From: Flavobacterium pectinovorum
Lineage (GTDB): Bacteria > Bacteroidota > Bacteroidia > Flavobacteriales > Flavobacteriaceae
Direction of reading: 5' to 3'
DNA length: 64,000 nucleotides
Assembly (NCBI RefSeq): GCF_006438875.1
Contig: NZ_RCZH01000008.1
Coordinates: 248,001-312,000 of the forward strand
Below are positions 45,150 to 56,648 of the stretch, one piece after another. Each line of letters opens with the position of its first letter. The first letter of the stretch is position 1. The notes beneath the pieces are model-generated. The model was not told the origin of the DNA, did not search any database, and saw only the letters and a list, made by a program, of their open reading frames with translations. The position numbers and the translations under genes were made by a program.

Positions 45150-45911
45150 ATGAAAACTATAATTCCTTTGAAAAATCACAAAAAAAATCACATCTGCATT
45201 ATCATATTTGGATTTTTATTAAGTATTTCAAATTTATACAGCCAAAACAATAAAGAAGAGTCATTTTACAATTGGTTTGACAATTCTGTAGGCAAAGAAA
45301 ACTTAAGTATCAACAATGGACCAGCTTACAAAGACACTTATGTAACTATTGGCGATAATAATATGTACTATGTTAATAAATTCATGAAGGGCAATGTAAC
45401 TTATGACGGACAGATTTATTACGACATCAATATCAAATACAACATTAATAGCGATCAATTGATCATAAATCCAATTGGGGACTCCAAATATTCTTCAATA
45501 GCAGTTATTCAGGACAAGACATCTGCATTTTATGTAAATGGAAAAAACTTCGTAAAACTGAACAAAGAGGTGTCTACATTACCTCAACTGACAACAGGTT
45601 ATTATGAATTGACTGCTCTTCGTGAAGGCTTTAACTTTTACATCAAACATTTTAAAAAGATGGAAAGTAAGACACAAGACTATAAAGCATATTCTTATTT
45701 TACAGAAGACAATAGTTATTTCATCTTTTATAATAAGACTTTTTATACCAGTAATAGTAAAAGTGAAATTATAAAAATATTCCCGGATCAAAAGAAACAG
45801 ATTAATGATTTTTATGCAATGAATAGAGAAATTCGAAAATCAGACAACGATCAATTTATGATCAATCTCCTTAAATTCATTAACACTTCTCTATTAATTA
45901 CAGAAAAATAA
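45150..45911 (+). CDS. Secreted protein of unknown function, first gene of the receptor operon
   Basis: 253 residues. A basic start (KNHKKNH) is followed by a hydrophobic signal segment (about 16-31, ending NLYSQ). The mature protein has GNVTYDGQIYYDINIKYNIN and SDQLIINPIGDS, a pattern I recall from many exported Bacteroidota proteins, and ends in a lysine-rich helical part. No catalytic motif is seen. It is four bases from the STN receptor gene, so the two are translationally linked. It may be a periplasmic or surface accessory of the receptor. Function unknown. Confidence 0.72.
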   Translation: MKTIIPLKNHKKNHICIIIFGFLLSISNLYSQNNKEESFYNWFDNSVGKENLSINNGPAYKDTYVTIGDNNMYYVNKFMKGNVTYDGQIYYDINIKYNINSDQLIINPIGDSKYSSIAVIQDKTSAFYVNGKNFVKLNKEVSTLPQLTTGYYELTALREGFNFYIKHFKKMESKTQDYKAYSYFTEDNSYFIFYNKTFYTSNSKSEIIKIFPDQKKQINDFYAMNREIRKSDNDQFMINLLKFINTSLLITEK

Positions 45912-45915
45912 TCTT

Positions 45916-48702
45916 ATGAGAAAACTTCTACTTATTATACTTACTTTACTTTTCAATCCATTCATATTTGCACAGGAAACAAGCGATAAAGTATCTCTTG
46001 AATTTAAAGATGCGGATATGATGACTGTAATTCAAACTATTGAAGCATCATCGTCTTATAGATTCTATTTTGACGCTGAATGGATTAAATCAAATAAAAA
46101 CTTATATACCGGAAGCTACAAAAATGTTTCTATTGATGAAGTATTAAACAAAGTATTCAGCAATACGAACCTTAACTTTCTTGTTCTTAAATCGAAAATA
46201 ATTCTAACAAACAACAGCATTATTCACAATAAATTGCCTGCTAATTATTTTCCTAAATCAAATAATAACTTAGCAAATCAAACTGGTAGAACAATTCAAA
46301 ATCCAATATTTTACCAACAATATGATTCTTTACAAAATAGTAGTGGTTCCAAAAAGAACTTAGCGATAACCTTTATAGGAAAAGAAACTGATATTACAGA
46401 TAAAAAGAATTCTACTATTTCCGGATATATCAGAAACGCTTCGACCAACAAGCCTGAGCCTAATATCTACATGAAGGTACGCAACAAAAATATAAGTGCC
46501 GTTAGCGATCAGGACGGACATTATATCTTACAGGTTCCTCCCGGAATTAATGTAATAGAAATTAAAACACTTAGTTTTAAAAAGCTTGCACAAACAATAA
46601 TGGTTTATAATGATGGACCGCTTGATATTGAAATTCAGGAAGACACCAACTTACTGGATGAAGTTATTATAAGAAGCAAAAGACCAAAAACGGTAGAAAG
46701 TGTTATTTCAGGGCTTGTATCTATTGATATCGAAGCTTCAAAGACGGTTCCTTTAATATTAGGAGAACGCGACATCCTTAAAATAGCAACTACTTTCCCC
46801 GGGATAAAAACTACCGGAGAAGGTTCTGCGGGATTTAATGTTCGTGGAGGAAAAGAAGACCAAAACTTAGTGCTTCTGGACAATGCTGTACTTTATAATC
46901 CGCAGCATTTCTTAGGTTTTTTCTCTGCAATAAATCCTTATACCGCCAAAAAAGCCGATATTTATAAAGGTAGTATTCCTGCTGATTTTGGCGGACGTTT
47001 ATCTTCTGTTTTTGATATAACTACAAAAAATGGTAACGCCGAAAAATTTTCAGGCGAAGGCGCCGTAGGTCCAATTACTTCTAATATTACGGTTGGAATG
47101 CCTATTCAAAAAAATAAATCAAGCATTATTGTTGGATTAAGAGCTACTTATTCTGACTGGATTCTAAAATCTTTAGACAATGAAGATTTAAAAAATAGTG
47201 AAGCCGGATTCTATGACGGAATTATGAAATACAACAACACTATTAACAAAAACAATTCAGTAGAAGCGACTTTGTATTACAGCCATGACCGTTTTAGAAT
47301 AAGCTCTGATTCCTTGTACAAATACAGTAACCGTCTTGCATCTGCAAAATGGGATCATACTTTTAATAAGAAAAATAAAGGATCCTTATTTTTTACCAAT
47401 AGTGAATACAAATTCAACATTGATTACGATTCTAACAACAAAAATAATTCTTTTGATTTTGGATACAAAATCAACGAAACACAGCTTATGGCTAAGCTTA
47501 ACTATGTGTACAGTGAAAAACATAGTATAAACTATGGTATTTCGAGCAAGTTATACAATGTTGATCCGGGATATCAACATGCCAAAAGTCCTGATTCACC
47601 TTTGGTTCCAATTGACATTGAAAAAGAAAGGGGTCTTGAATCGGCTATTTTTATATCAGACAATTTTAAGTTAAACAGTAAATTATTAATCGATATAGGA
47701 TTACGTTATTCATTTTATGCAGCATTGGGAGAAGCCAATCAGGCAGTATATCAAAGCGGATTACCTCTGGATGACGCATCCTATATTGAAACAAAACATT
47801 ACGGAAACAATGAAGTTATAAAAACATACGGAGGTCTTGAACCTCGTATCGCTGCTCGTTATTTCTTTACAGATGATTTTTCTATAAAAGCCAGTTTTGA
47901 TCAAACAAGACAATACATACACCTGCTTTCGAATAATGTAACTCAATCTCCAACAGATACGTGGACTTTATCAAATACAAATGTAAAACCGCAAAGCGGA
48001 CAGCAATATTCTTTAGGTTTATACAAAAACTTGCATGATAACGAAATCGAACTTAGTCTGGAAGGTTATTACAAAAGATCACAAAATATATTAGACTACA
48101 AAGTTGGTGCAGAATTAATCCTGAATGACAATGTAGAAACCCAACTTTTGCAAGGAGAAGGAAAAGCATATGGTGTTGAGTTTTTAATAAAAAAATCAAT
48201 TGGAAAATTAAACGGATGGATTGGATATACGTATTCCAGAACGCTTATAAAACTGGACAGTAAATTTGATTCGGAAATAGTAAATAACGGTAAATATTTT
48301 GCCGCAAATTTTGACAAGCCTCATGACTTGAGTGCTGTTTTAAATTATAAATTTACAAAACGTTATAGTTTATCAACCAACTTTTTATACCAGACCGGAA
48401 GACCAATTACATATCCTATTGGAACGTTTCAATATGGAAATGCTGAATATACCTTATATAGTGACAGAAATAAATATCGAATTCCGGATTATATCCGTTT
48501 AGATATTGGGCTTAACATCGAAGGGAATCATAAAATAAAAAAACTGGCACATAGTTTCTGGAATGTATCCGTGTACAATGTGTTAGGCAGAAGCAATCCG
48601 TATTCTGTTTATTTTGTAACCGAAAAAGGGCAAATAAAGGCATACAAAACGTCTATATTTTCTATTCCGGTTCCTAGTATTACTTATAATTTTAAATTCT
48701 AA
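45916..48702 (+). CDS. TonB-dependent receptor with N-terminal STN signalling domain
   Basis: Outer-membrane transporter/transducer, 928 residues. Signal peptide 1-19 (ending FIFAQ). STN (secretin/TonB short N-terminal) domain at about 24-103 (VSLEFKDADMMTVIQTIEAS, VSIDEVLNKVFSNTNLNFLV). A linker of about 60 residues. Carboxypeptidase-regulatory-like domain at about 167-245 (TISGYIRNASTNKPEPNIYM). Plug at about 255-385 (GFNVRGGKEDQNLVLLDNAV, YKGSIPADFGGRLSSVFDIT). Then the barrel. STN receptors usually signal to a FecR-type anti-sigma factor, but none is encoded here; a histidine kinase and LytTR regulator follow instead. Substrate unknown; peptide uptake is a hypothesis from the neighbours. 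Confidence 0.9.
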   Translation: MRKLLLIILTLLFNPFIFAQETSDKVSLEFKDADMMTVIQTIEASSSYRFYFDAEWIKSNKNLYTGSYKNVSIDEVLNKVFSNTNLNFLVLKSKIILTNNSIIHNKLPANYFPKSNNNLANQTGRTIQNPIFYQQYDSLQNSSGSKKNLAITFIGKETDITDKKNSTISGYIRNASTNKPEPNIYMKVRNKNISAVSDQDGHYILQVPPGINVIEIKTLSFKKLAQTIMVYNDGPLDIEIQEDTNLLDEVIIRSKRPKTVESVISGLVSIDIEASKTVPLILGERDILKIATTFPGIKTTGEGSAGFNVRGGKEDQNLVLLDNAVLYNPQHFLGFFSAINPYTAKKADIYKGSIPADFGGRLSSVFDITTKNGNAEKFSGEGAVGPITSNITVGMPIQKNKSSIIVGLRATYSDWILKSLDNEDLKNSEAGFYDGIMKYNNTINKNNSVEATLYYSHDRFRISSDSLYKYSNRLASAKWDHTFNKKNKGSLFFTNSEYKFNIDYDSNNKNNSFDFGYKINETQLMAKLNYVYSEKHSINYGISSKLYNVDPGYQHAKSPDSPLVPIDIEKERGLESAIFISDNFKLNSKLLIDIGLRYSFYAALGEANQAVYQSGLPLDDASYIETKHYGNNEVIKTYGGLEPRIAARYFFTDDFSIKASFDQTRQYIHLLSNNVTQSPTDTWTLSNTNVKPQSGQQYSLGLYKNLHDNEIELSLEGYYKRSQNILDYKVGAELILNDNVETQLLQGEGKAYGVEFLIKKSIGKLNGWIGYTYSRTLIKLDSKFDSEIVNNGKYFAANFDKPHDLSAVLNYKFTKRYSLSTNFLYQTGRPITYPIGTFQYGNAEYTLYSDRNKYRIPDYIRLDIGLNIEGNHKIKKLAHSFWNVSVYNVLGRSNPYSVYFVTEKGQIKAYKTSIFSIPVPSITYNFKF

Positions 48703-48706
48703 CGAA

Positions 48707-49897
48707 ATGCATTTTAAAACTGAAATAATCAAACATACCAATAAAATCATTCTGTTCTTTCTGCTAAGTTTTTTCATTAGCAGTTGTTCAGAAAGCTATA
48801 ACTTACAGACAGACACTTATGAAGAAGCTATAGTTATAGAGGCAACTTTGACTAATGAACTTAAAAACCAGGAAATAAAGATTACCAAAACTTCCCGATT
48901 CGAAGACGAAGAAGTCACTGTAGAAACCGGTGCAAATGTGATTGTAAAGGATAATCTTAACAACGAATATCTTTTTACAGAGAAATCCGGTAAGTATGTT
49001 TCGGAATCAGCGTTTGAGGTGGTTTCCGGCAGACAATATTCTTTGGAAATAAAAACTAAAGATGGTAAAGTTTATAAATCATCTTCAGAAACTTTACCAA
49101 CCGTAAGTCCTATTACTGACATTACTCCAAGCGTGGTCGTAAACAATAAAAATGAGACTGGTATACAAATGAATGCAAACAGCTATGATGCAAACCGAAC
49201 TTCTAATTATTATCGTTATGAATATGAAGAAACTTTTAAAATTGTAGCTCCCAGATGGACTTCAGAAAGAGCTGTCGTAACCGGGCCTAAAAACATACGA
49301 ATAGACGATGACAATGATCCAGCCAAAAAAATCTGTTATTCCACACAAAAATCAACCGATATAATCGTAACCAGTACCAACAATCTAACAGAAGATCGTG
49401 TTAATTTTCCTGTACGATTTATCAAGCAAGATGATTATAAGATTGCCCAAAGATACAGTATCCTGGTAAGACAGTATGTAGAAAATAAAGCAGCTTATAC
49501 TTTTCATAAAACTATGAAAGAGATATCGAGCTCTACTAGTGTATTATCTCCAAAACAGCCTGGTGTATTTTCCGGAAACATAAGATGTATTAGTAATGTA
49601 GACGAAAAAGTTATGGGCTATTTTGATGTTGCATCGGTATCCTCTCAAAGAATCTTTTTTAACTATACAGATTTTTTTCCTTCTACAGATAAACCTGCTT
49701 ATATTAGTGAATGTGAGCCTATGAAACTTAACTTTTGTTTTGAAGCTAATACAACCCCTCCATGTGATGGATATACCATAATTTCAGGCCTTCAAGGTGG
49801 TGGACTATTATACTACTTTGGTAGCTATGTAGAAGCAATATGTGGAGATTGTACAAAATTTTCGTCTAACGTAATACCTTCATTTTGGAAAGAATAA
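48707..49897 (+). CDS. DUF4249 domain-containing lipoprotein
   Basis: 396 residues. Lipobox-type signal peptide ending FFISSC, with Cys at about 27 as the lipidated residue. The first part (YEEAIVIEATLTNELKNQEI, then TGANVIVKDNLNNEYLFTEK and YSLEIKTKDGKVYKSSSETL) is the typical DUF4249 start with an immunoglobulin-like fold. DUF4249 genes usually follow a TonB-dependent receptor, as here with a 4-base gap, so it is probably a surface or periplasmic partner of the receptor. It overlaps the next gene by 13 bases. Confidence 0.88.
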   Translation: MHFKTEIIKHTNKIILFFLLSFFISSCSESYNLQTDTYEEAIVIEATLTNELKNQEIKITKTSRFEDEEVTVETGANVIVKDNLNNEYLFTEKSGKYVSESAFEVVSGRQYSLEIKTKDGKVYKSSSETLPTVSPITDITPSVVVNNKNETGIQMNANSYDANRTSNYYRYEYEETFKIVAPRWTSERAVVTGPKNIRIDDDNDPAKKICYSTQKSTDIIVTSTNNLTEDRVNFPVRFIKQDDYKIAQRYSILVRQYVENKAAYTFHKTMKEISSSTSVLSPKQPGVFSGNIRCISNVDEKVMGYFDVASVSSQRIFFNYTDFFPSTDKPAYISECEPMKLNFCFEANTTPPCDGYTIISGLQGGGLLYYFGSYVEAICGDCTKFSSNVIPSFWKE

Positions 49898-51627
49898 AAT
49901 ACATTTTACTATTGATATTGCTTATCAATACAAAACCGATTATAGCGCAAAACACTTCAATAAATGAAAGTGTATTTATCCATGCAAATGCAACGACTTT
50001 TGTAACCGGAGAGAAACTTTTGTATAAAATTTATAGCTTAAAAAACACAGACAAAACTCCAAGTACCGTTAGTAAAGTAGCCTATGTTGAACTTATAGAC
50101 GCCTGTGGAAAAAACATTTTCAAGAACAAACTCTACTTAAAAAACAGCAGCGGAGAAGGTGATTATTTTATCCCTACAACCATTAAAACCGGTGGTTATA
50201 AACTTATTGGATACACCAATTGGATGTTAAACTCAGATGCTTCTAAAATATTCCAAATTGATATTAAAATAATAAACCCGTATCAAATCAGCGAATCGAA
50301 TGCAGTAGAAAGTAAAGCAGTTTCTGAAAAAACAAATCAGATAAACTCAGCATTAACTTCTTCATCTGTAACAGAAGAAAACGCATCAGACAAAAATTTT
50401 AAAATAAAAGTAAACAAAGACGTTTTCTCGAATCGTGAAAAAGTAACATTAGGCATAGAATCTTCTGCTTTATCACCAGAAAAAGGAAGCTATTCATTGT
50501 CTGTGCGTAAAAAAGACAATTTGCCAACAACAACTCAATTAACGGCAAGTGATTTTTCTAAAATTCCATCTGAAATTGAAAATAATGTCCAAAATAAAAA
50601 CGCAATAGTTCTTCCTGAACTTCGTGGAGAAATGATTTCCGGTAAAGTGATTTCAAAAAACTCTGTAAACAATAGTCTACAAAATATAATTGTAGCATTG
50701 TCTATACCAGGAAAATCATTTGCTTATAAAGCTATAAAAACAAATGAAGCTGGTCGTTTTATTTTTAATGTAGACAAACCTTATTATAACAACGAGATCG
50801 TTATACAAATTATTGGGGAACAAAAAGAAAACTACACTATAGAACTTGATAAAGCAAGCGAGCCGGATTATTCAAAATTAGCGTTTCAATCCTATTTTAA
50901 TTTACCGGGCGAGATCGAAGAAACCTTGTTGGAAAGATCTGTTGCGAGCCAAATCGAAAACGCCTACTATACAGACAAAACAGACAGTATAATTAAACCG
51001 GATTATATCAATCCGTTTTACTATCCGGTTGCCAAACAATATATTCTTAGTGATTATACAAGATTCCCATCTTTAAAAGAAACCATTACCGAAGTAGCAA
51101 CAGAACTGTATTATAGACAAAGCGGCGCCGATTATTCTTTGCATGTAAATGATTATAGCCTTCATACGCAATTACCTGAAAAGCCATTAGTGATAGTTGA
51201 CGGTTTTATGCTGCAAAATATAAATGAACTTTTCAATTTTAACATGGCAAACGTGTACAGTATTAGTATCATAACGGGTCAGTATTATGTAGGTCCACAA
51301 GTTTTTAATGGTGTAATAAGTTTTGTTACCCTAGAGGGTAATTTCACCAGTTTACAAAAAGACAATTACATCTTTAAACCTACTGTTTTAAGACCTTCAG
51401 TAAAAAAATCATATTATAGTCCGGATTATGCTGCTGGAAACAATTTGCAGCGAATTCCGGATTACAGATACCAATTGTTATGGAAACCAGATGTAACATT
51501 AGATCAAAAAGAAGATGATATCTCTTTTTATACCTCTGATGTAAAAGGAAGCTTTGAAGTTGTTTTAGAAGGCTTTACTGAAAAAGGACAACCCGTTTAT
51601 CTTTCTAAAACTATTAGTGTGGAATAA
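49885..51627 (+). CDS. Macroglobulin-like/plug-like exported protein without barrel
   Basis: 580 residues from a TTG start that overlaps the DUF4249 gene. Signal peptide 1-21 (ending KPIIAQ). MG2-like domain (about 25-130: FIHANATTFVTGEKLLYKIY, YFIPTTIKTGGYKLIGYTNW). A carboxypeptidase-regulatory-like sandwich (about 250-320: SGKVISKNSVNNSLQNIIVA). Near 435-490 a TonB plug-like segment, LVIVDGFMLQNINELFNFNM and FNGVISFVTLEGNF, but no barrel follows. I recall longer proteins of this MG-plus-plug type in Bacteroidota, often near TonB receptors. Its function is unknown. Being last in the receptor operon, it may be part of the same envelope complex. Confidence 0.72.
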   Translation: MERIKYILLLILLINTKPIIAQNTSINESVFIHANATTFVTGEKLLYKIYSLKNTDKTPSTVSKVAYVELIDACGKNIFKNKLYLKNSSGEGDYFIPTTIKTGGYKLIGYTNWMLNSDASKIFQIDIKIINPYQISESNAVESKAVSEKTNQINSALTSSSVTEENASDKNFKIKVNKDVFSNREKVTLGIESSALSPEKGSYSLSVRKKDNLPTTTQLTASDFSKIPSEIENNVQNKNAIVLPELRGEMISGKVISKNSVNNSLQNIIVALSIPGKSFAYKAIKTNEAGRFIFNVDKPYYNNEIVIQIIGEQKENYTIELDKASEPDYSKLAFQSYFNLPGEIEETLLERSVASQIENAYYTDKTDSIIKPDYINPFYYPVAKQYILSDYTRFPSLKETITEVATELYYRQSGADYSLHVNDYSLHTQLPEKPLVIVDGFMLQNINELFNFNMANVYSISIITGQYYVGPQVFNGVISFVTLEGNFTSLQKDNYIFKPTVLRPSVKKSYYSPDYAAGNNLQRIPDYRYQLLWKPDVTLDQKEDDISFYTSDVKGSFEVVLEGFTEKGQPVYLSKTISVE

Positions 51628-51723: not shown

Positions 51724-51768
51724 CTAAAGGTATTTCATAATTTATTCAAAGAAAAAAAATACCTTTAG
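51724..51768. repeat. 12-bp inverted repeat downstream of the receptor operon
   Basis: CTAAAGGTATTT (51724-51735) pairs with AAATACCTTTAG (51757-51768), 21-base loop, no T run. Possible weak terminator or leader structure of the next gene, 39 bases before its ATG. Confidence 0.55.
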
Positions 51769-51807
51769 CCTACCAAAAATAAAAATTTTAACCCTAAAAA
51801 CCCTGTT

Positions 51808-52236
51808 ATGGACGATCAAGTTATCCAGATTACAAAAATCAACACCGAAGATTTTATATTTAAAGACATACAAAATATAACTTTTCCAATTCCTCCGCTG
51901 GCTTCGGCAAACTTTTATGACAATGACGGAGTACAAACCTTAAAAGTCTGTTCTACCGTATATATCAATTCTAAAGGAACAGAAAAACCTACAGTACAAA
52001 GAACAACACAGGACGACAGCACTTTAACCATTTATTATGACTACGAATGGGACGAGATCTCTCCAGACACTTATAACGTCTATTACATAGAAACAGATTA
52101 TACCTCTGACACTATTGGAGATATCACAGAAGTTATCACTTACTTAAAGTATACACCTTCAACAACTGTTGTAGGCCCTGGCGATGGAGGAGATCCGACA
52201 CTATCTAGAGGTACAAAGACAAGTTCAGGAGGTTGA
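51808..52236 (+). CDS. Protein of unknown function ending in the DPxxSRGTKTS peptide tag
   Basis: 142 residues, no signal peptide, one cysteine. The body (1-125) has alternating beta-type sequence with acidic and Thr-rich stretches and resembles nothing that I recognise. The tail is GPGDGGDPTLSRGTKTSSGG. Its DPTLSRGTKTS is identical to the core of peptide 4 in the array 2.5 kb downstream, and in both it follows Gly-Gly. The shared DNA (33 bases starting GATCC) differs at three positions, so the tag was copied recently. It could be a carrier or larger pro-form of the peptide, or a protein sharing its recognition tag. It lies between the receptor operon and the kinase. Confidence 0.7.
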   Translation: MDDQVIQITKINTEDFIFKDIQNITFPIPPLASANFYDNDGVQTLKVCSTVYINSKGTEKPTVQRTTQDDSTLTIYYDYEWDEISPDTYNVYYIETDYTSDTIGDITEVITYLKYTPSTTVVGPGDGGDPTLSRGTKTSSGG

Positions 52237-52283
52237 TCCAAAACCAGTGCTACGCTAAATTTATAGATTCCCATCATTATGTG

Positions 52284-52350
52284 TTGATGATTATCGTTTT
52301 ATTGTAAGTATTTGATGCAATGACACCTACAATAAAACGATAATCATCAA
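52284..52350. repeat. 23-bp perfect inverted repeat upstream of the kinase gene
   Basis: Arms 52284-52306 and 52328-52350 (beginning TTGATGATTATCGTTTTATT) are exact complements with a 21-base loop, 38 bases before the kinase ATG. No T run follows, so it is either the terminator of the tag-protein gene without a U tract or a leader/regulatory structure. Confidence 0.8.
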
Positions 52351-52388
52351 TACTATTATTAGATCTAGTAATTTTCAAAATACCACTG

Positions 52389-54119
52389 ATGATTCGAAAA
52401 ATAAATCGCTTTCTTTTTCTACTTCTTTTTTTTCCCTTAATAGTTTTAGCACAACAACATAAAAGTTTGAATTATTTTGAGATTGCTATTCAAAAAAAAG
52501 CAAAGTCGGATAAGAGTCAAATCAACTTTAACAAAGCACATTATTTTTTTTTAAAAAAAGAATGGGATTCAACATTGGTATATGCAATGAAGCAATTGAA
52601 TTCTAAGTCTGATTTAGAAACAAAAGATTATTGTCATTATTTTAGAGGTTATTCCTTAAAAAAGAAAGAACTTTACAAACAAGCAATAGTTGAATTCAGC
52701 TTAGTAAACAAATCTTTCCAATATTATTATCTGGTCGATAACAATATTGGTCATTTATTTCTTTTAAAAAAAGAAATAAAAAAAGCAATTGTTTATTTTT
52801 TAAAGGCAGAAAATGAAATATTGAATCGTAAAGATGAGAACGAAATAGCTGATTTATATACAAATATTGGAATATGCTACTTACACTTAAATCAATTTGC
52901 AAAAGCAGAATCTTATTTTAAAAAAGACCTCCTTTTAAATTCTAAACGAGCTACAAAAAATGTAATTCGATCCAATATAAATCTTGCCGGTCTTTATTAT
53001 CAACAATATAAAGACTCACAAGCTATTTACTATTTTCGAAAAGCCTACACCTTATCTAAAAGTATAAACGATTTCAACTTAAAACAAACTACAGCATTCA
53101 ACATGGCTGTTGTAGAAGAAAACAGAGGTGATTTTAAGAAATCTTTAAAATATAGAAAAGAATCCGAACAATGGCAAGACTCACTCAACAATCAAAATAA
53201 AATATGGGCAGTCGCTGATTTTGAGAAAAAGTTTGCCGTGGCGCAAAAACAAAAACAAATTAAAGTACTTGAAGTCCAAAACAAGCTTAAAAACGCAGAA
53301 CGCAACGCTTTCTTTTTTGCTGCAATTGGTTTATTATTAATTTTAACTGCCGGTGTTTATGTTTATGCTCAAAAAGTAAAAAATGCCAAAATTATATTAC
53401 TTCAAAAAAATAAACTCGACGAACTCAACGCGACTAAAGATCAATTGTTCTCGATTGTAAGTCATGATTTAAGATCTTCTGTAAATGCATTAAAAACCAG
53501 TAATGCAAAATTATCCGCAACTCTCGAAACTAAAAATTACGACGAACTACACCAGCTTATCATACAAAATAGTAGTATTGCAAATGGCGCTTACAGTTTA
53601 CTAGACAATTTATTGCATTGGGCAATGCTGCAAACCAAACAATTGTATTTTCATAAAGAATCCGTTCATTTGTACTCTATCGTACAACAAATCGAGTACA
53701 ATTACAAACCTTTACTTCTTGATAAGACATTAACCTTTGAAAATTCAGTTTCTAAAAACATTTTCATTTTTGTAGATCTTGATTCGTTAAAAATTGTGCT
53801 TCGAAATTTATTAGATAATGCTATTAAATTTTCTAATGAAAATGGAAAAATAAGTTTTTACACAGAAGACACCAATACTGACTTTTGCAAACTTATTATT
53901 GAAGATTCAGGTATAGGAATGAAAGAAAACACTATTAAAGAATTGCTTTCAGAGGGAGAATTATTGGCAAAGAAAGACAACTCCGAAATTATAGGAACTG
54001 GTTTAGGCTTGCAATTGTGTAAACAAATGATCAAAAAAAACAGCGGAACCTTAGCTATAGAAAGTGAACTGAACAAGGGAACAAAAATGATTTTGGCTTT
54101 CCCAAAAACTATTGCTTAA
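52389..54119 (+). CDS. Sensor histidine kinase with periplasmic TPR domain
   Basis: 576 residues. Signal peptide 1-21 (ending IVLAQ). Tetratricopeptide-type repeats (about 40-270, e.g. ADLYTNIGICYLHLNQFAKA). A coiled coil is followed by one membrane helix (about 309-329, FFFAAIGLLLILTAGVYVYA). The cytoplasmic kinase has the H box FSIVSHDLRSS with phospho-acceptor His359, the N box LRNLLDNAIKFSNENGKI, and G boxes IEDSGIGMKE and GTGLGLQLCKQM. TPR sensors of this kind are typical of Bacteroidota and pair with LytTR regulators. A near-match -7 box (TAATTTTC, 52369-52376) lies 12 bases upstream. The peptide genes follow 153 bases later and a LytTR regulator after them, so the kinase is the candidate peptide sensor. 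Confidence 0.9.
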   Translation: MIRKINRFLFLLLFFPLIVLAQQHKSLNYFEIAIQKKAKSDKSQINFNKAHYFFLKKEWDSTLVYAMKQLNSKSDLETKDYCHYFRGYSLKKKELYKQAIVEFSLVNKSFQYYYLVDNNIGHLFLLKKEIKKAIVYFLKAENEILNRKDENEIADLYTNIGICYLHLNQFAKAESYFKKDLLLNSKRATKNVIRSNINLAGLYYQQYKDSQAIYYFRKAYTLSKSINDFNLKQTTAFNMAVVEENRGDFKKSLKYRKESEQWQDSLNNQNKIWAVADFEKKFAVAQKQKQIKVLEVQNKLKNAERNAFFFAAIGLLLILTAGVYVYAQKVKNAKIILLQKNKLDELNATKDQLFSIVSHDLRSSVNALKTSNAKLSATLETKNYDELHQLIIQNSSIANGAYSLLDNLLHWAMLQTKQLYFHKESVHLYSIVQQIEYNYKPLLLDKTLTFENSVSKNIFIFVDLDSLKIVLRNLLDNAIKFSNENGKISFYTEDTNTDFCKLIIEDSGIGMKENTIKELLSEGELLAKKDNSEIIGTGLGLQLCKQMIKKNSGTLAIESELNKGTKMILAFPKTIA

Positions 54120-54272
54120 TACCCTATTTTTAAAATAAAGCAATCCTATCGTTTTCTTCAAAAGTCTATTAGCCAGATCAAAAAAATCATCTGATTCCGA
54201 ATTATCTTATATTTTTTATAGTTGCCTTATTTTTTTGACTACTTTTATTTTATTAACCCAAAAATGAAAACT
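54120..54272. promoter_or_regulatory. Leader region of the peptide array
   Basis: 153 bases between kinase and first peptide gene. No exact TAnnTTTG box is seen; nearest are TACTTTTA (54240-54247) and TATTTTTTTG (54229-54238). This may mean that an activator (the LytTR regulator) is needed. No convincing LytTR direct repeat was found. Confidence 0.35.
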
Positions 54273-54416
54273 ATGAAAAATAAAGCAACCGAAGACAAAA
54301 CAAAAACATCAAATCTTAAAGGCTTCACTGCTCTTTCCAGAAAACAATTACAAACTGTTTTAGGAGGAGTAGACCCAACAACATCAAGAGGGACAAGAAC
54401 AAGTGCAGGAGATTAA
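54273..54416 (+). CDS. Double-glycine-leader peptide 1
   Basis: 47 residues, MKNKATEDKTKTSNLKGFTA, then LSRKQLQTVLGG, then the core VDPTTSRGTRTSAGD. The leader ends in Gly-Gly after an LSRKQLQ helix, the form cleaved by C39-peptidase ABC exporters and similar to the GG-type natural-product precursor leaders of Bacteroidota. The core has no cysteine, so it cannot be a lanthipeptide or disulfide bacteriocin. It is the first of six paralogues. The frame extends to 54222 and an ATG at 54264 is possible, but alignment with the other five supports 54273. Role as signal or effector is inferred. Confidence 0.85.
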   Translation: MKNKATEDKTKTSNLKGFTALSRKQLQTVLGGVDPTTSRGTRTSAGD

Positions 54417-54427
54417 TTCAAAAAACG

Positions 54428-54571
54428 ATGAAAAATAAAGCAACCAAAAACACGGAGAAAACATCAAGTCTTAAAAACTTCTCTGCTCTTTCCAGAAAAC
54501 AATTACAAACTATTTTAGGAGGATCAGATCCAACAACATCTAGAGGCACAAGAACGAGTTCAGGAGACTAA
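54428..54571 (+). CDS. Double-glycine-leader peptide 2
   Basis: 47 residues: a leader with SSLKNFSALSRKQLQTILGG and the core SDPTTSRGTRTSSGD. It starts 11 bases after peptide 1 on the same transcript. Compared with peptide 1, the core differs at two positions only. It lacks Cys, Trp and aromatic residues in the core. Too short for routine gene callers, but supported by five flanking paralogues and by conservation of leader and core in phase. Confidence 0.85.
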   Translation: MKNKATKNTEKTSSLKNFSALSRKQLQTILGGSDPTTSRGTRTSSGD

Positions 54572-54581
54572 TCAAAAAACT

Positions 54582-54725
54582 ATGAAAAACAAAACAACCA
54601 AAAACACGGCAAAAATATCGAGCCTAAAAAACTTCACTCCTCTTTCCAGAAAGCAATTACAAACTATTTTAGGAGGAACAGATCCAACAATATCTAGAGG
54701 TACAAGAACAAGTGCGTCAGATTAA
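54582..54725 (+). CDS. Double-glycine-leader peptide 3
   Basis: 47 residues: a leader with SSLKNFTPLSRKQLQTILGG and the core TDPTISRGTRTSASD. It starts 10 bases after peptide 2. The conserved DP, RGT and TS positions are kept; position 5 of the core (T/I/L) is a variable one across the family. Confidence 0.85.
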   Translation: MKNKTTKNTAKISSLKNFTPLSRKQLQTILGGTDPTISRGTRTSASD

Positions 54726-54734
54726 TTAAAAACT

Positions 54735-54878
54735 ATGAAAAATAAAGCAACCGAAGACACAACAAAAACATCAAGCCTTAAAAACTTCACTCCTCTTTCC
54801 AGAAAACAATTACAAACTATTTTAGGAGGAACAGATCCAACATTATCTAGAGGCACAAAGACAAGTGCGGGAGATTAA
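54735..54878 (+). CDS. Double-glycine-leader peptide 4
   Basis: 47 residues: a leader with SSLKNFTPLSRKQLQTILGG and the core TDPTLSRGTKTSAGD. The segment DPTLSRGTKTS is identical to the C-terminal tag of the 142-residue protein at 51808-52236. It starts 9 bases after peptide 3. Confidence 0.85.
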   Translation: MKNKATEDTTKTSSLKNFTPLSRKQLQTILGGTDPTLSRGTKTSAGD

Positions 54879-54889
54879 TTCAAAAAACT

Positions 54890-55042
54890 ATGAAAAATAA
54901 AACAACCACAAACACAGAGAAAAAATCAAGCCTTAAAAGCTTTACTGCTCTTTCCAGAAAACAATTACAAACTATTTTAGGAGGAACAGGAGATCCGGTA
55001 ACATCTAGAGGTACTAAAACAAGTATACCAGACGAACCATAA
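54890..55042 (+). CDS. Double-glycine-leader peptide 5
   Basis: 50 residues: a leader with SSLKSFTALSRKQLQTILGG and the core TGDPVTSRGTKTSIPDEP. The core is longer than in copies 1-4: one extra residue before DP and an IPDEP end. With peptide 6 it forms a second subtype. Confidence 0.85.
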   Translation: MKNKTTTNTEKKSSLKSFTALSRKQLQTILGGTGDPVTSRGTKTSIPDEP

Positions 55043-55059
55043 CCAAAAAATAAAACCCT

Positions 55060-55209
55060 ATGAAAAACAAAGCAACCAAAAACACAGACAAAACATCAAG
55101 CCTTAAAAACTTCTCTGCTCTTTCCAGAACACAATTACAAACTGTTTTAGGAGGCGAAGATCCGAAAATTTTTAGAGGCACAAAGACAAGTATACCTGAT
55201 AATCCATAA
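55060..55209 (+). CDS. Double-glycine-leader peptide 6
   Basis: 49 residues: a leader with SSLKNFSALSRTQLQTVLGG (Lys to Thr in the SRKQ element) and the core EDPKIFRGTKTSIPDNP. It is the most diverged copy: Ser before RGT is Phe, and the end is IPDNP as in peptide 5. It is the last of the array and is followed by a terminator. Confidence 0.85.
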   Translation: MKNKATKNTDKTSSLKNFSALSRTQLQTVLGGEDPKIFRGTKTSIPDNP

Positions 55210-55251
55210 TTTTTCTTTAACTAATCAAATTTAAGAGATTAATCTTTTTAT

Positions 55252-55294
55252 AAAATCCCAATCTATGATTATAAATTAATAGATTGGGATTTTA
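55252..55294 (+). terminator. Terminator of the peptide array
   Basis: AAAATCCCAATCTAT (55252-55266) pairs with ATAGATTGGGATTTT (55279-55293). Confidence 0.85.
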
Positions 55295-55448
55295 CTTTAA
55301 TGCATTCTCTAAATCACCATACTATCTCTGTTTATATAAACATCCTTAAAAAATACGCCTTAAACAATCCTTTTCTCTATAATAATTCTTTACTTTACTC
55401 CACCAAAAGTCTTATTAACAATACTTGCTTTCCCAAAAACAATAAATA

Positions 55449-56195
55449 ATGGATAATATCAATGTTTTAATAATAGAAGATACTCCAGAACAAGGCGATG
55501 CTCTTACCAAAGTATTGCTTGAAAACAATTACACCGTTGCCGGAGTAGCCAAAAACTTTACAGATGCTATAAAGCTTTTTTACGAAAACACCGTTGATGT
55601 TATTATCATCGATGTGTTTCTTGACGGAAAACCAGACGGAATCACTTTTGCAGAATCCATAAACATTATTCCAAACGCTTCAAAACCATTTGTGTTTTTA
55701 ACCAGTTCGCATGATCGTCAGATTTTTGAACGTGCAAAGCTCACGAAACCGTTCAGTTTTTTAATGAAGCCTTTTAATGAGTTAGAAATTCTGTATGCTA
55801 TAGAAATGGCGGTCGAGAAATTCTATGAACAAACCAATGTATTTTTAAGCGAAGAACAAGACACTGTAATCAGCAGTGATTACTTATTTATAAAAAAGAA
55901 AAACTCCCTAAAAAAAGTTTCTATAAACGACATTCTATACATTGAAGTCGAAGAACGATATTGCAATATTATTACCGAAAAAGAAAAATTTGTCATTCAA
56001 ATCTCCCTGACTAAAATCAGTAATTTATTGGACAAAAATAAATTCATAAAAACCCATCGAAACACTCTTGTCAATACAGACAAAATCGAAGAAATCATTC
56101 TCGCTGATAATCTTGTGATCCTAAAAGGAAATCATAAAATAAATCTAAGCGATACTTATAAAGATTTTATCAAAAAAATGAATATTTTATCCTAA
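55449..56195 (+). CDS. LytTR-type response regulator
   Basis: 248 residues. The receiver domain (1-125) has the acidic pair Glu10-Asp11, phospho-acceptor Asp55 in VIIIDVFLDG, Thr/Ser in FLTSSHD, and Lys107 in FLMKPF. The C-terminal LytTR DNA-binding domain (about 147-245) shows VSINDILYIEVEERYCNIIT and KFIKTHRNTLVNTDKIEEII. It is the natural partner of the TPR kinase upstream, and the peptide array lies between them. By analogy with other LytTR regulators it should bind direct repeats upstream of target promoters. No exact -7 box precedes it; readthrough past the array terminator or an unusual promoter is possible. Confidence 0.93.
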   Translation: MDNINVLIIEDTPEQGDALTKVLLENNYTVAGVAKNFTDAIKLFYENTVDVIIIDVFLDGKPDGITFAESINIIPNASKPFVFLTSSHDRQIFERAKLTKPFSFLMKPFNELEILYAIEMAVEKFYEQTNVFLSEEQDTVISSDYLFIKKKNSLKKVSINDILYIEVEERYCNIITEKEKFVIQISLTKISNLLDKNKFIKTHRNTLVNTDKIEEIILADNLVILKGNHKINLSDTYKDFIKKMNILS

Positions 56196-56396: not shown

Positions 56397-56648
56397 ATGA
56401 GAATTGCATTAATCAACCAACCCGATATGAGACCTTTAGTAATCATAAAAAAAATAATCAATAATCCCTGGGTTGGAGTTCTTGTTTCATTAGCTGTAAT
56501 AATTCCATGTTTATACGAGATTCTGGATGATATTACGGTTCTTAGAAAAGAATATATAGTATTGTTAATCTCATTTCCGATCTACATAAAATCACTTAAA
56601 AAGATATTTGACGAAATTTTAGACACCTCAGATGATTTTTCCGAGTAA
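56397..56648 (+). CDS. Small membrane protein, unknown
   Basis: 83 residues (73 if the ATG at 56427 is used). Two hydrophobic segments (about 24-42, PWVGVLVSLAVIIPCLYEI, and 52-65, EYIVLLISFPIYIK), ending in an acidic tail (DEILDTSDDFSE). A terminator follows, which supports a real gene. Whether it belongs with the peptide system (for instance as an immunity-like membrane peptide) or with rpoD is unknown. Confidence 0.6.
   Translation: MRIALINQPDMRPLVIIKKIINNPWVGVLVSLAVIIPCLYEILDDITVLRKEYIVLLISFPIYIKSLKKIFDEILDTSDDFSE

Follow-up and report, generated by a model that had tools for sequence, protein, structure and literature searches.

We analysed a 64,000-nucleotide stretch of Flavobacterium pectinovorum DNA (hereafter the window, which lies on contig C51 of the 6.46 Mb genome G000) in which a gene for a 142-residue protein is followed by genes for a sensor histidine kinase with tetratricopeptide repeats (TPR), six short peptides with double-glycine (GG) leaders and a LytTR response regulator. 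The conserved unit of this locus is a protein with a divergent body and a C-terminal DPxxSRGTxT tail (the SRGT tail), a TPR kinase and a LytTR regulator, in that order. The locus is real, conserved and outside every family tested, and it is very probably a peptide-signalling locus. Comparative evidence best supports a signalling reading in which the locus probably serves as a peptide-sensing two-component module, with the SRGT segment as the ligand of the TPR groove. The original prediction, which covered positions 51808-56195, had placed the array of six peptides at the centre of such a system, and this idea was partly right. The kinase, the six peptide genes and the regulator are all present where it had put them, as judged by open reading frames, Pfam and a check of the peptides, but it had overlooked the 142-residue frame with its core-like tail. 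The centre of the system is the SRGT tail and the kinase, not the array.

Conservation of the module

The sensor part of the kinase was searched against 249 Flavobacterium genomes and matched in 71 of them at E <= 1e-12 and in 64 (71 matches) at E <= 1e-30. The surroundings of all 71 matches at the stricter threshold were fetched, and nearly everywhere they hold a small protein, the kinase and a LytTR regulator in this order. One locus, L140, was left out of the counts because its kinase runs off the contig (its tail is present), so that 70 of the 71 genus loci were counted. When the tail is defined as a match to P..[STDPF][RK][GA][TV].[TVI] in the last 34 residues of a close, co-directional upstream open reading frame, it precedes the kinase in 65 of these 70 loci. 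The LytTR gene is adjacent in 69 of the 70, and in G103 it lies beyond the array. Some genomes carry two or three modules, G212 having three. At the level of the family, a survey of 397 Flavobacteriaceae genomes gave a kinase homologue at E <= 1e-25 in 28, and 31 loci from 19 other genera were counted, with G476 and G462 (weak) left out of the 33 rows besides G000 and G060. The tail motif is present in 28 of these loci, the misses being L208 (DPELSRGTIS) and the degenerate L197 and L213, and the LytTR gene is adjacent in all 31.

The link between tail and kinase also holds when the search starts from the tail. When the 249 genus genomes were scanned with a DNA pattern encoding DPxx[S]RGTxT, 68 matches turned up in 56 of them, against three for the reversed pattern. 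A kinase of this family is no more than 10 kb away from 67 of the 68; the remaining match, in G027, has SSGT rather than SRGT. The pattern occurs in 55 of the 64 genomes with the kinase versus 1 of the 185 others (Fisher p 1.9e-44). A later order-level search of 148 genomes included three Flavobacterium genomes new to the analysis, and in these the SRGT tail was upstream of four of four close kinase homologues, with no LytTR gene adjacent at one locus (L229). Beyond the family there was a single match (L230, E 2e-29), at which the tail is missing and the regulator is of a different kind. At L151 (contig C9 of G105), a copy of the kinase contains one TAG and two TAA codons and the upstream tail gene is kept.

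The original prediction had expected the order of kinase, peptides and LytTR regulator to recur in relatives. The pair of kinase and regulator is indeed widespread, whereas the full order with peptides is found only in G000, G052 and G103. Peptides combining a GG leader with the SRGT motif occur in 4 of the 249 genus genomes and, among the 397 family genomes, only in G000; the constant partner of the kinase is the tail protein, which is why the array does not hold as the centre of the system.

The tail protein and its motif

The window tail protein ends in DPTLSRGTKTSSGG (its last 14 residues), which nearly equals the fourth peptide core, DPTLSRGTKTSAGD; this core agrees with the tail of its own genome at 10 of 11 positions. 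The pattern used to collect 94 tails required P and T and restricted two further positions to R/K and G/A, which makes the near-invariance of P, R/K, G/A and T partly a product of the selection. Outside these required positions, S is kept in 90 of 94 tails, T at +9 in 90 and V at +11 in 72, while positions before -11 are near random and the body diverges. The tails differ between species, with 93 distinct among the 94. The collected proteins are 128 to 339 residues long. Proteins of the A and B types are 21% identical when G103 is compared with G212 (differences of 23 and 14 kDa aside), and profile comparison finds the two types homologous with a probability of 99.1%.

In the predicted structure the window tail protein is beta-rich, residues 119-128 form a loose linker and the tail contains a short strand. 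Foldseek returned no match to this model at E <= 0.001 (best 0.28, with weak SecB and Parabacteroides rows), and the best VIA-align match had Z 4.3 over 95 aligned residues at a root-mean-square deviation (rmsd) of 4.3, which does not prove a new fold. Nine tail proteins had no Pfam family at E <= 1, three had no match in PHROGs, and a sequence search of the PDB gave nothing below E 0.43. A match to TipC immunity proteins (NCBIfam, E 0.019) fell below the cut-off and was rejected.

The kinase sensor and its relation to the tail

The kinase consists of an N-terminal hydrophobic segment, a TPR region, a transmembrane helix and HATPase_c. TPR_12, TPR_1 and HATPase_c (64.7 bits) exceed their Pfam cut-offs; HisKA is sub-threshold (E 0.086), and HATPase_c_5 reaches 15.6 against a cut-off of 22. 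In the window kinase one transmembrane helix is predicted after the TPR domain, and across 90 kinases the predicted topology includes a hydrophobic N-terminus in 79 and a transmembrane segment in 87. The model of the sensor, with a predicted local distance difference test score (pLDDT) of 84.6, shows a TPR superhelix flanked by a signal-like N-terminus and the transmembrane helix. Many of the folds it matches are peptide-binding TPRs, such as RapI (Z 20.5, rmsd 4.2, 231 residues aligned), NprR with NprX (Z 18.4, rmsd 5.0, 236 aligned), PlcR with PapR (Z 17.9, rmsd 3.8, 202 aligned), the phi3T Rap with RGHTS (Z 18.1, rmsd 4.3, 241 aligned) and KLC1 with a C-terminal peptide (Z 20.3), at sequence identities of 8-18%.

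The variable positions of the tail follow the similarity of the sensors (r 0.35) more than that of the kinase domains (0.10). The partial correlation between tail and sensor is 0.47, and none of 1000 permutations was as high (n = 90; L143, which has two kinases, was left out). Sensing by the periplasmic TPR domain, as originally proposed, fits this predicted fold and the linkage data.

Peptide arrays and exporters

The six peptide copies of the window are in frame and under purifying selection, with a ratio of nonsynonymous to synonymous substitution of 0.52 in the leader and 0.31 in the core; this selection and the homologous arrays of three relatives at the corresponding locus speak against a chance occurrence. 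All six are 47-50 residues long, as had been described. Every core lacks Cys and contains DP and RGT[KR]TS, the sixth having FRGT instead of SRGT. The leader end was given as LSRKQLQT[IV]LGG, which is exact in five of the six; the sixth reads LSRTQLQT, and [IV]LGG ends every leader. The array lies within 1330 bases that separate kinase from regulator in the window. The two genes overlap by 8 bases in G075 and G183, whose loci contain no peptides.

Array size varies from two peptides in G052 to four in G212, six in G000 and 17 intact copies plus one with a stop in G103, and all four arrays sit at the module locus. On a kinase tree of 100 rows, from which kinases under 500 residues were left out, the gain of arrays needs at least two changes. 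An array match in G183, covering model positions 2-34 with an internal TAG, was not counted, and other GG-peptide families in G061 and G077 have unrelated cores and were set aside. In the clusters of G103 and G212 the array is accompanied by a C39-peptidase ATP-binding cassette (ABC) exporter of 742 or 740 residues, with a DCGPT active-site stretch, and by a 429-residue HlyD-type adaptor. These linked genes back the proposal that the peptides are exported after GG cleavage. Between the two genomes the exporters are 80% identical, against 57% for the kinases and 21% for the tail proteins, which indicates that the exporter cassette has its own history.

No exporter had been seen in the window, and a genome-wide search agrees, with none of the 10 C39-peptidase matches of G000 (8 over the cut-off) on contig C51. 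Elsewhere G000 has seven full-length C39 exporters and a shorter C39-like protein. Two of the four exporters examined have a radical-SAM-like gene with CxxxCxxC nearby; these two loci, L234 (contig C32) and L237 (contig C50), are probable loci for ribosomally synthesised and post-translationally modified peptides (RiPPs), and L234 also has a Cys-containing GG-peptide. The exporter on contig C23 has a HlyD-like neighbour and no GG-peptide by pattern search, and it may be a candidate for export of the array in trans.

A further GG-leader peptide of G000 lies at L049 (contig C12), flanked on one side by a 518-residue protein that matches C39 weakly and on the other by the end of an AraC-type regulator, and the gene set is the same as at L040. 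At L040:7838-8761 (G077) and L041:5659-7705 (G061), the GG-peptides stand beside regulators of about 590 residues with an AraC-like C-terminal end, and G077 has five peptides ending in EPKKTGGNGNP or similar. These loci of G077 and G061 hint that sensor regulators may be paired with GG-peptides more widely in Flavobacterium.

A conserved element upstream of the tail gene

An expectation-maximisation motif upstream of the 94 tail genes reached a log-likelihood of 427, against 91-97 in three shuffled sets. The element, TTCAAAGAAAAAAAATACCTTTA, is near-invariant in the seven closest genomes and strong only in the A-type clade, and its -33 part is unlike the textbook Bacteroidota promoter. A 12-bp inverted repeat around it was seen only in the window and G103 and was dropped. 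By-eye inspection found no classical LytTR direct repeats.

Proposed mechanism and alternative explanations

We infer the following course of cleavage, export, binding and output. The SRGT segment ([D]PxxSRGTxTxV.., about 13 residues) would be freed at or near the conserved proline and would bind the TPR groove of the kinase as Phr binds Rap, so that a PTLSRGTKTSSGG-type peptide is a putative ligand of the TPR domain. The GG-peptides, which repeat the tail motif, would be an exportable form added in G000 and three surveyed relatives; their cleavage after Gly-Gly and their export would fall to a C39-peptidase ABC exporter with a HlyD adaptor, a role that in G000 an exporter elsewhere in the genome would have to fill. 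On arrival in the periplasm of the producing cell or of its neighbours, the peptides would set the kinase, and the LytTR regulator would then change gene expression. The cores of G103 and G212 begin with Pro directly after Gly-Gly (GG|PETSRGT..), those of the window keep one or two residues before it, and Pro is present in 94 of 94 tails, although the collecting pattern required it; the GG|P cores and this Pro suggest that the ligand starts at or near the proline. Self-cleavage at Asp-Pro was considered as the means of release and is weakened, since 5 of 94 tails have Asn or Glu in place of Asp and no Asp precedes Pro in the GG|P cores of G103 and G212.

Several findings weigh against this reading. 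The tail is absent altogether at L150, L152 and L153 in the genus, and degenerate at L116 (DPETSTGTKI), L130 (DPETSKRTTI), L197 and L213. A hydrophobic N-terminus was found in 0 of 94 tail proteins, which bears on their route to the periplasm. Most module loci lack a linked exporter; G000 and G052 have no dedicated one, the nearest homologue being 52% identical, and a 15-kb stretch of G052 contains no linked C39 exporter. The window leaders score below family cut-offs (TIGR01847, 13.9 against 15.7). The upstream element was searched for at the arrays and not found, and its absence from the array promoter leaves co-regulation of array and tail gene unsupported and the regulator, as originally proposed, a putative controller of the array. 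The structural matches show fold, not function, because TPR folds match widely with high Z, and the correlation between tail and sensor could also be explained by recombination of adjacent DNA.

Plain self-signalling is further complicated in one genome, G103. In G000, G052 and G212, all 11 cores compared (6, 2 and 3; of 12 peptides) are closer to the tail of their own genome than to the mean of the 94 tails, but in G103 16 of 17 cores are less like their own tail than that mean. Three of the 17 G103 cores equal the full tails of G079, G054 and G217. Column-shuffled G103 cores give 0.03 full matches on average, and 0 of 5000 shuffles reach three; 9 of the 17 G103 11-mers match tails, against 3.2 expected. 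A milder null, built on the rate of identity among tails (1 of 4371 pairs), predicts 0.37 (Poisson p ~0.006). Signalling between species by the arrays is a serious possibility, and it is tempting, if tentative, to see the tail of the leaderless cytosolic protein as a species-specific word for the TPR kinase, perhaps an alarm at the lysis of kin, with arrays that export such words and, in G103, foreign ones with which to talk to or jam neighbours. Leaderless wound peptides of plants offer a parallel for the idea of a lysis alarm. A related reading, in which the arrays are not, or not only, self signals but broadcast the ligands of other species so as to trigger or jam their kinases, and self-sensing is left to the tail protein, appears doubtful to us. 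It would account for the three shared tails, which exceed both the shuffle and the pair-rate nulls, and for the distance of the G103 cores from their own tail; however, the cores compared in the other three genomes lie closer to their own tails than to the mean tail, the shuffles ignore linkage between columns, and the exact matches may stem from horizontal transfer of a tail-derived segment.

It is also conceivable, but unlikely, that the SRGT tail is an intracellular tag for recognition or processing by a cytoplasmic protease, chaperone or exporter, that the GG-peptides are decoys or inhibitors copying it, and that the operon of tail protein and kinase exists for other reasons. The tail proteins have neither signal peptide nor GG leader, and this, like the missing hydrophobic N-terminus and the scarcity of nearby exporters, would suit such a tag. 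The same motif is nevertheless carried by GG-leader peptides, and a C39 exporter and HlyD of their own accompany two arrays, so that there the motif is built to leave the cytoplasm; moreover, 67 of the 68 pattern matches stand beside a kinase of this family.

Least probable, in our judgement, is that the GG-peptides are bacteriocins or RiPPs under two-component control with the tail protein as immunity or carrier protein: multi-gene arrays are usual in such loci and the GG leaders are of the bacteriocin/RiPP type, the TIGR01847 cut-off being exceeded by the one G103 and the one G212 peptide tested (16.0 and 17.2 against 15.7), but the window cores (15-18 residues, grand average of hydropathy -1.1 to -1.6, near neutral charge) are strongly hydrophilic, unlike pore formers, TIGR04149 for radical-SAM-modified RiPPs stays below its cut-off (best 17.8 against 25 bits), no maturase gene, radical-SAM or other, appears beside the arrays in the open reading frame lists of L035, L036, L039 and the window, and tail and kinase persist without an array in most genomes. 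The original prediction had found no maturase anywhere in the window, which we can affirm for the open reading frames beside the array.

Comparison with known systems

FimS and FimR of Porphyromonas gingivalis are the closest known relatives in design, FimS being likewise a Bacteroidota histidine kinase with a periplasmic TPR sensor and FimR being of the LytTR type. Among NCBIfam models the window kinase matches that of FimS, NF053520, best (E 3e-47), but at 161.2 bits against a cut-off of 600 it is not FimS itself. The original prediction knew of no described system of this kind with a TPR sensor, but a TPR sensor beside a LytTR-type partner is in itself nothing new. Passages of a 2024 study give FimS a periplasmic TPR sensor (PMC11053733), propose a polypeptide as a possible binding partner of its TPRs and call its signal unknown. 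Neither a tail protein nor GG-peptides are described alongside FimS in those passages. The SRGT segment offers a short, concrete and testable candidate ligand for a family of TPR kinases and, by analogy, perhaps for FimS as portrayed there (PMC11053733).

The Rap-Phr and RRNPP(A) systems of Bacillota offer an analogy, since their receptors are TPR superhelices that read short linear peptides, in many cases derived from the C-terminal end of a precursor. These receptors are cytoplasmic and their peptides imported, whereas here the TPR domain is predicted to be periplasmic and part of a membrane kinase. According to excerpts from two papers, Phr peptides have a conserved Arg at position 2, held by Asp (PMC3601957), and those of phi3T are SRGHTS and RRGHTA (PMC11343458), a chemistry that SRGTxT resembles.

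ComC-ComD-ComE and Pln/Blp share with the present locus a GG-leader peptide, a kinase, a LytTR regulator and, in some relatives, a C39 exporter. HPK10 kinases are polytopic. The module kinase differs in its predicted periplasmic TPR region, a single transmembrane helix before the core and HATPase_c, and its putative ligand motif also occurs on a larger, leaderless protein. The window peptides do not belong to the ComC family (PF03047, best 18.8 against 20.4 bits; NF033214, 15.8 against 50). Bacteroidales clusters of GG-leader RiPPs have a PCAT exporter and sometimes a TPR-like gene or a histidine kinase and response regulator, and they differ in their radical-SAM or other maturases; SRGT cores and a tail protein are not mentioned in the portions of the source used here (PMC10352776). 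A survey of two-component quorum sensing places Bacteroidetes in several pathways, none with TPR sensors in the parts we draw on (PMC8895600), and PorA of P. gingivalis, whose kind has a conserved C-terminal domain, sets a precedent for a protein that feeds a two-component system (PMC7712824).

A literature search, also by tail strings (which gave chance matches to software papers), recognised no description of the SRGT module within a scope that left aside subscription journals and preprints. Peptide signalling is hardly known in this bacterial group, and if the proposed role of the SRGT segment is true, Bacteroidota would have a counterpart of Rap-Phr with a TPR receptor outside the cell membrane. 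In that case a natural experiment would be built in, since the motif sits on a leaderless protein in dozens of genomes and on exportable peptide arrays in a few.

Layout of the locus and neighbouring genes

The features of the locus are collected in Table 1. The promoter-like element lies about 60 nucleotides upstream of the start of the tail protein.

Table 1. Positions of the module, its peptide array and the upstream element in the window
Feature	Position	Strand	Remarks
Conserved promoter-like element	51745..51774	+	TTCAAAGAAAAAAAATACCTTTAG
Tail protein, 142 residues	51808..52236	+	C-terminal end DPTLSRGTKTSSGG; beta-rich predicted fold
SRGT tail (proposed ligand segment)	52192..52233	+	DPTLSRGTKTSSGG; pattern match, conservation profile
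Periplasmic-TPR sensor histidine kinase (predicted topology), 576 residues, FimS-like	52389..54119	+	
GG-peptide 1	54273..54416 (ATG 54273, or in-frame 54264)	+	core VDPTTSRGTRTSAGD
GG-peptide 2	54428..54571	+	core SDPTTSRGTRTSSGD
GG-peptide 3	54582..54725	+	core TDPTISRGTRTSASD
GG-peptide 4	54735..54878	+	core TDPTLSRGTKTSAGD
GG-peptide 5	54890..55042	+	core TGDPVTSRGTKTSIPDEP
GG-peptide 6	55060..55209	+	core EDPKIFRGTKTSIPDNP; departs at S of SRGT
LytTR response regulator, 248 residues	55449..56195	+	LytTR and Response_reg above Pfam cut-offs

The regulator scores 69.7 bits for LytTR (PF04397, cut-off 22.6) and 54.4 bits for Response_reg. A PADLOC match of its residues 4-123 to PD-T4-6 (E 6e-5) falls in the receiver region and was taken as a shared domain. 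After the regulator, an 83-residue open reading frame (56397-56648) gave no NCBIfam or Pfam match at E <= 1, and it is conserved in the window, G103, G052, G075 and G183. The tail gene is preceded by a four-gene cluster (45150-51627; 253, 928, 396 and 580 residues) whose second product resembles, by eye, a TonB receptor with a secretin-like N-terminus. Genes similar to this cluster in size and sequence also lie near the module in G103, G052 and G183.

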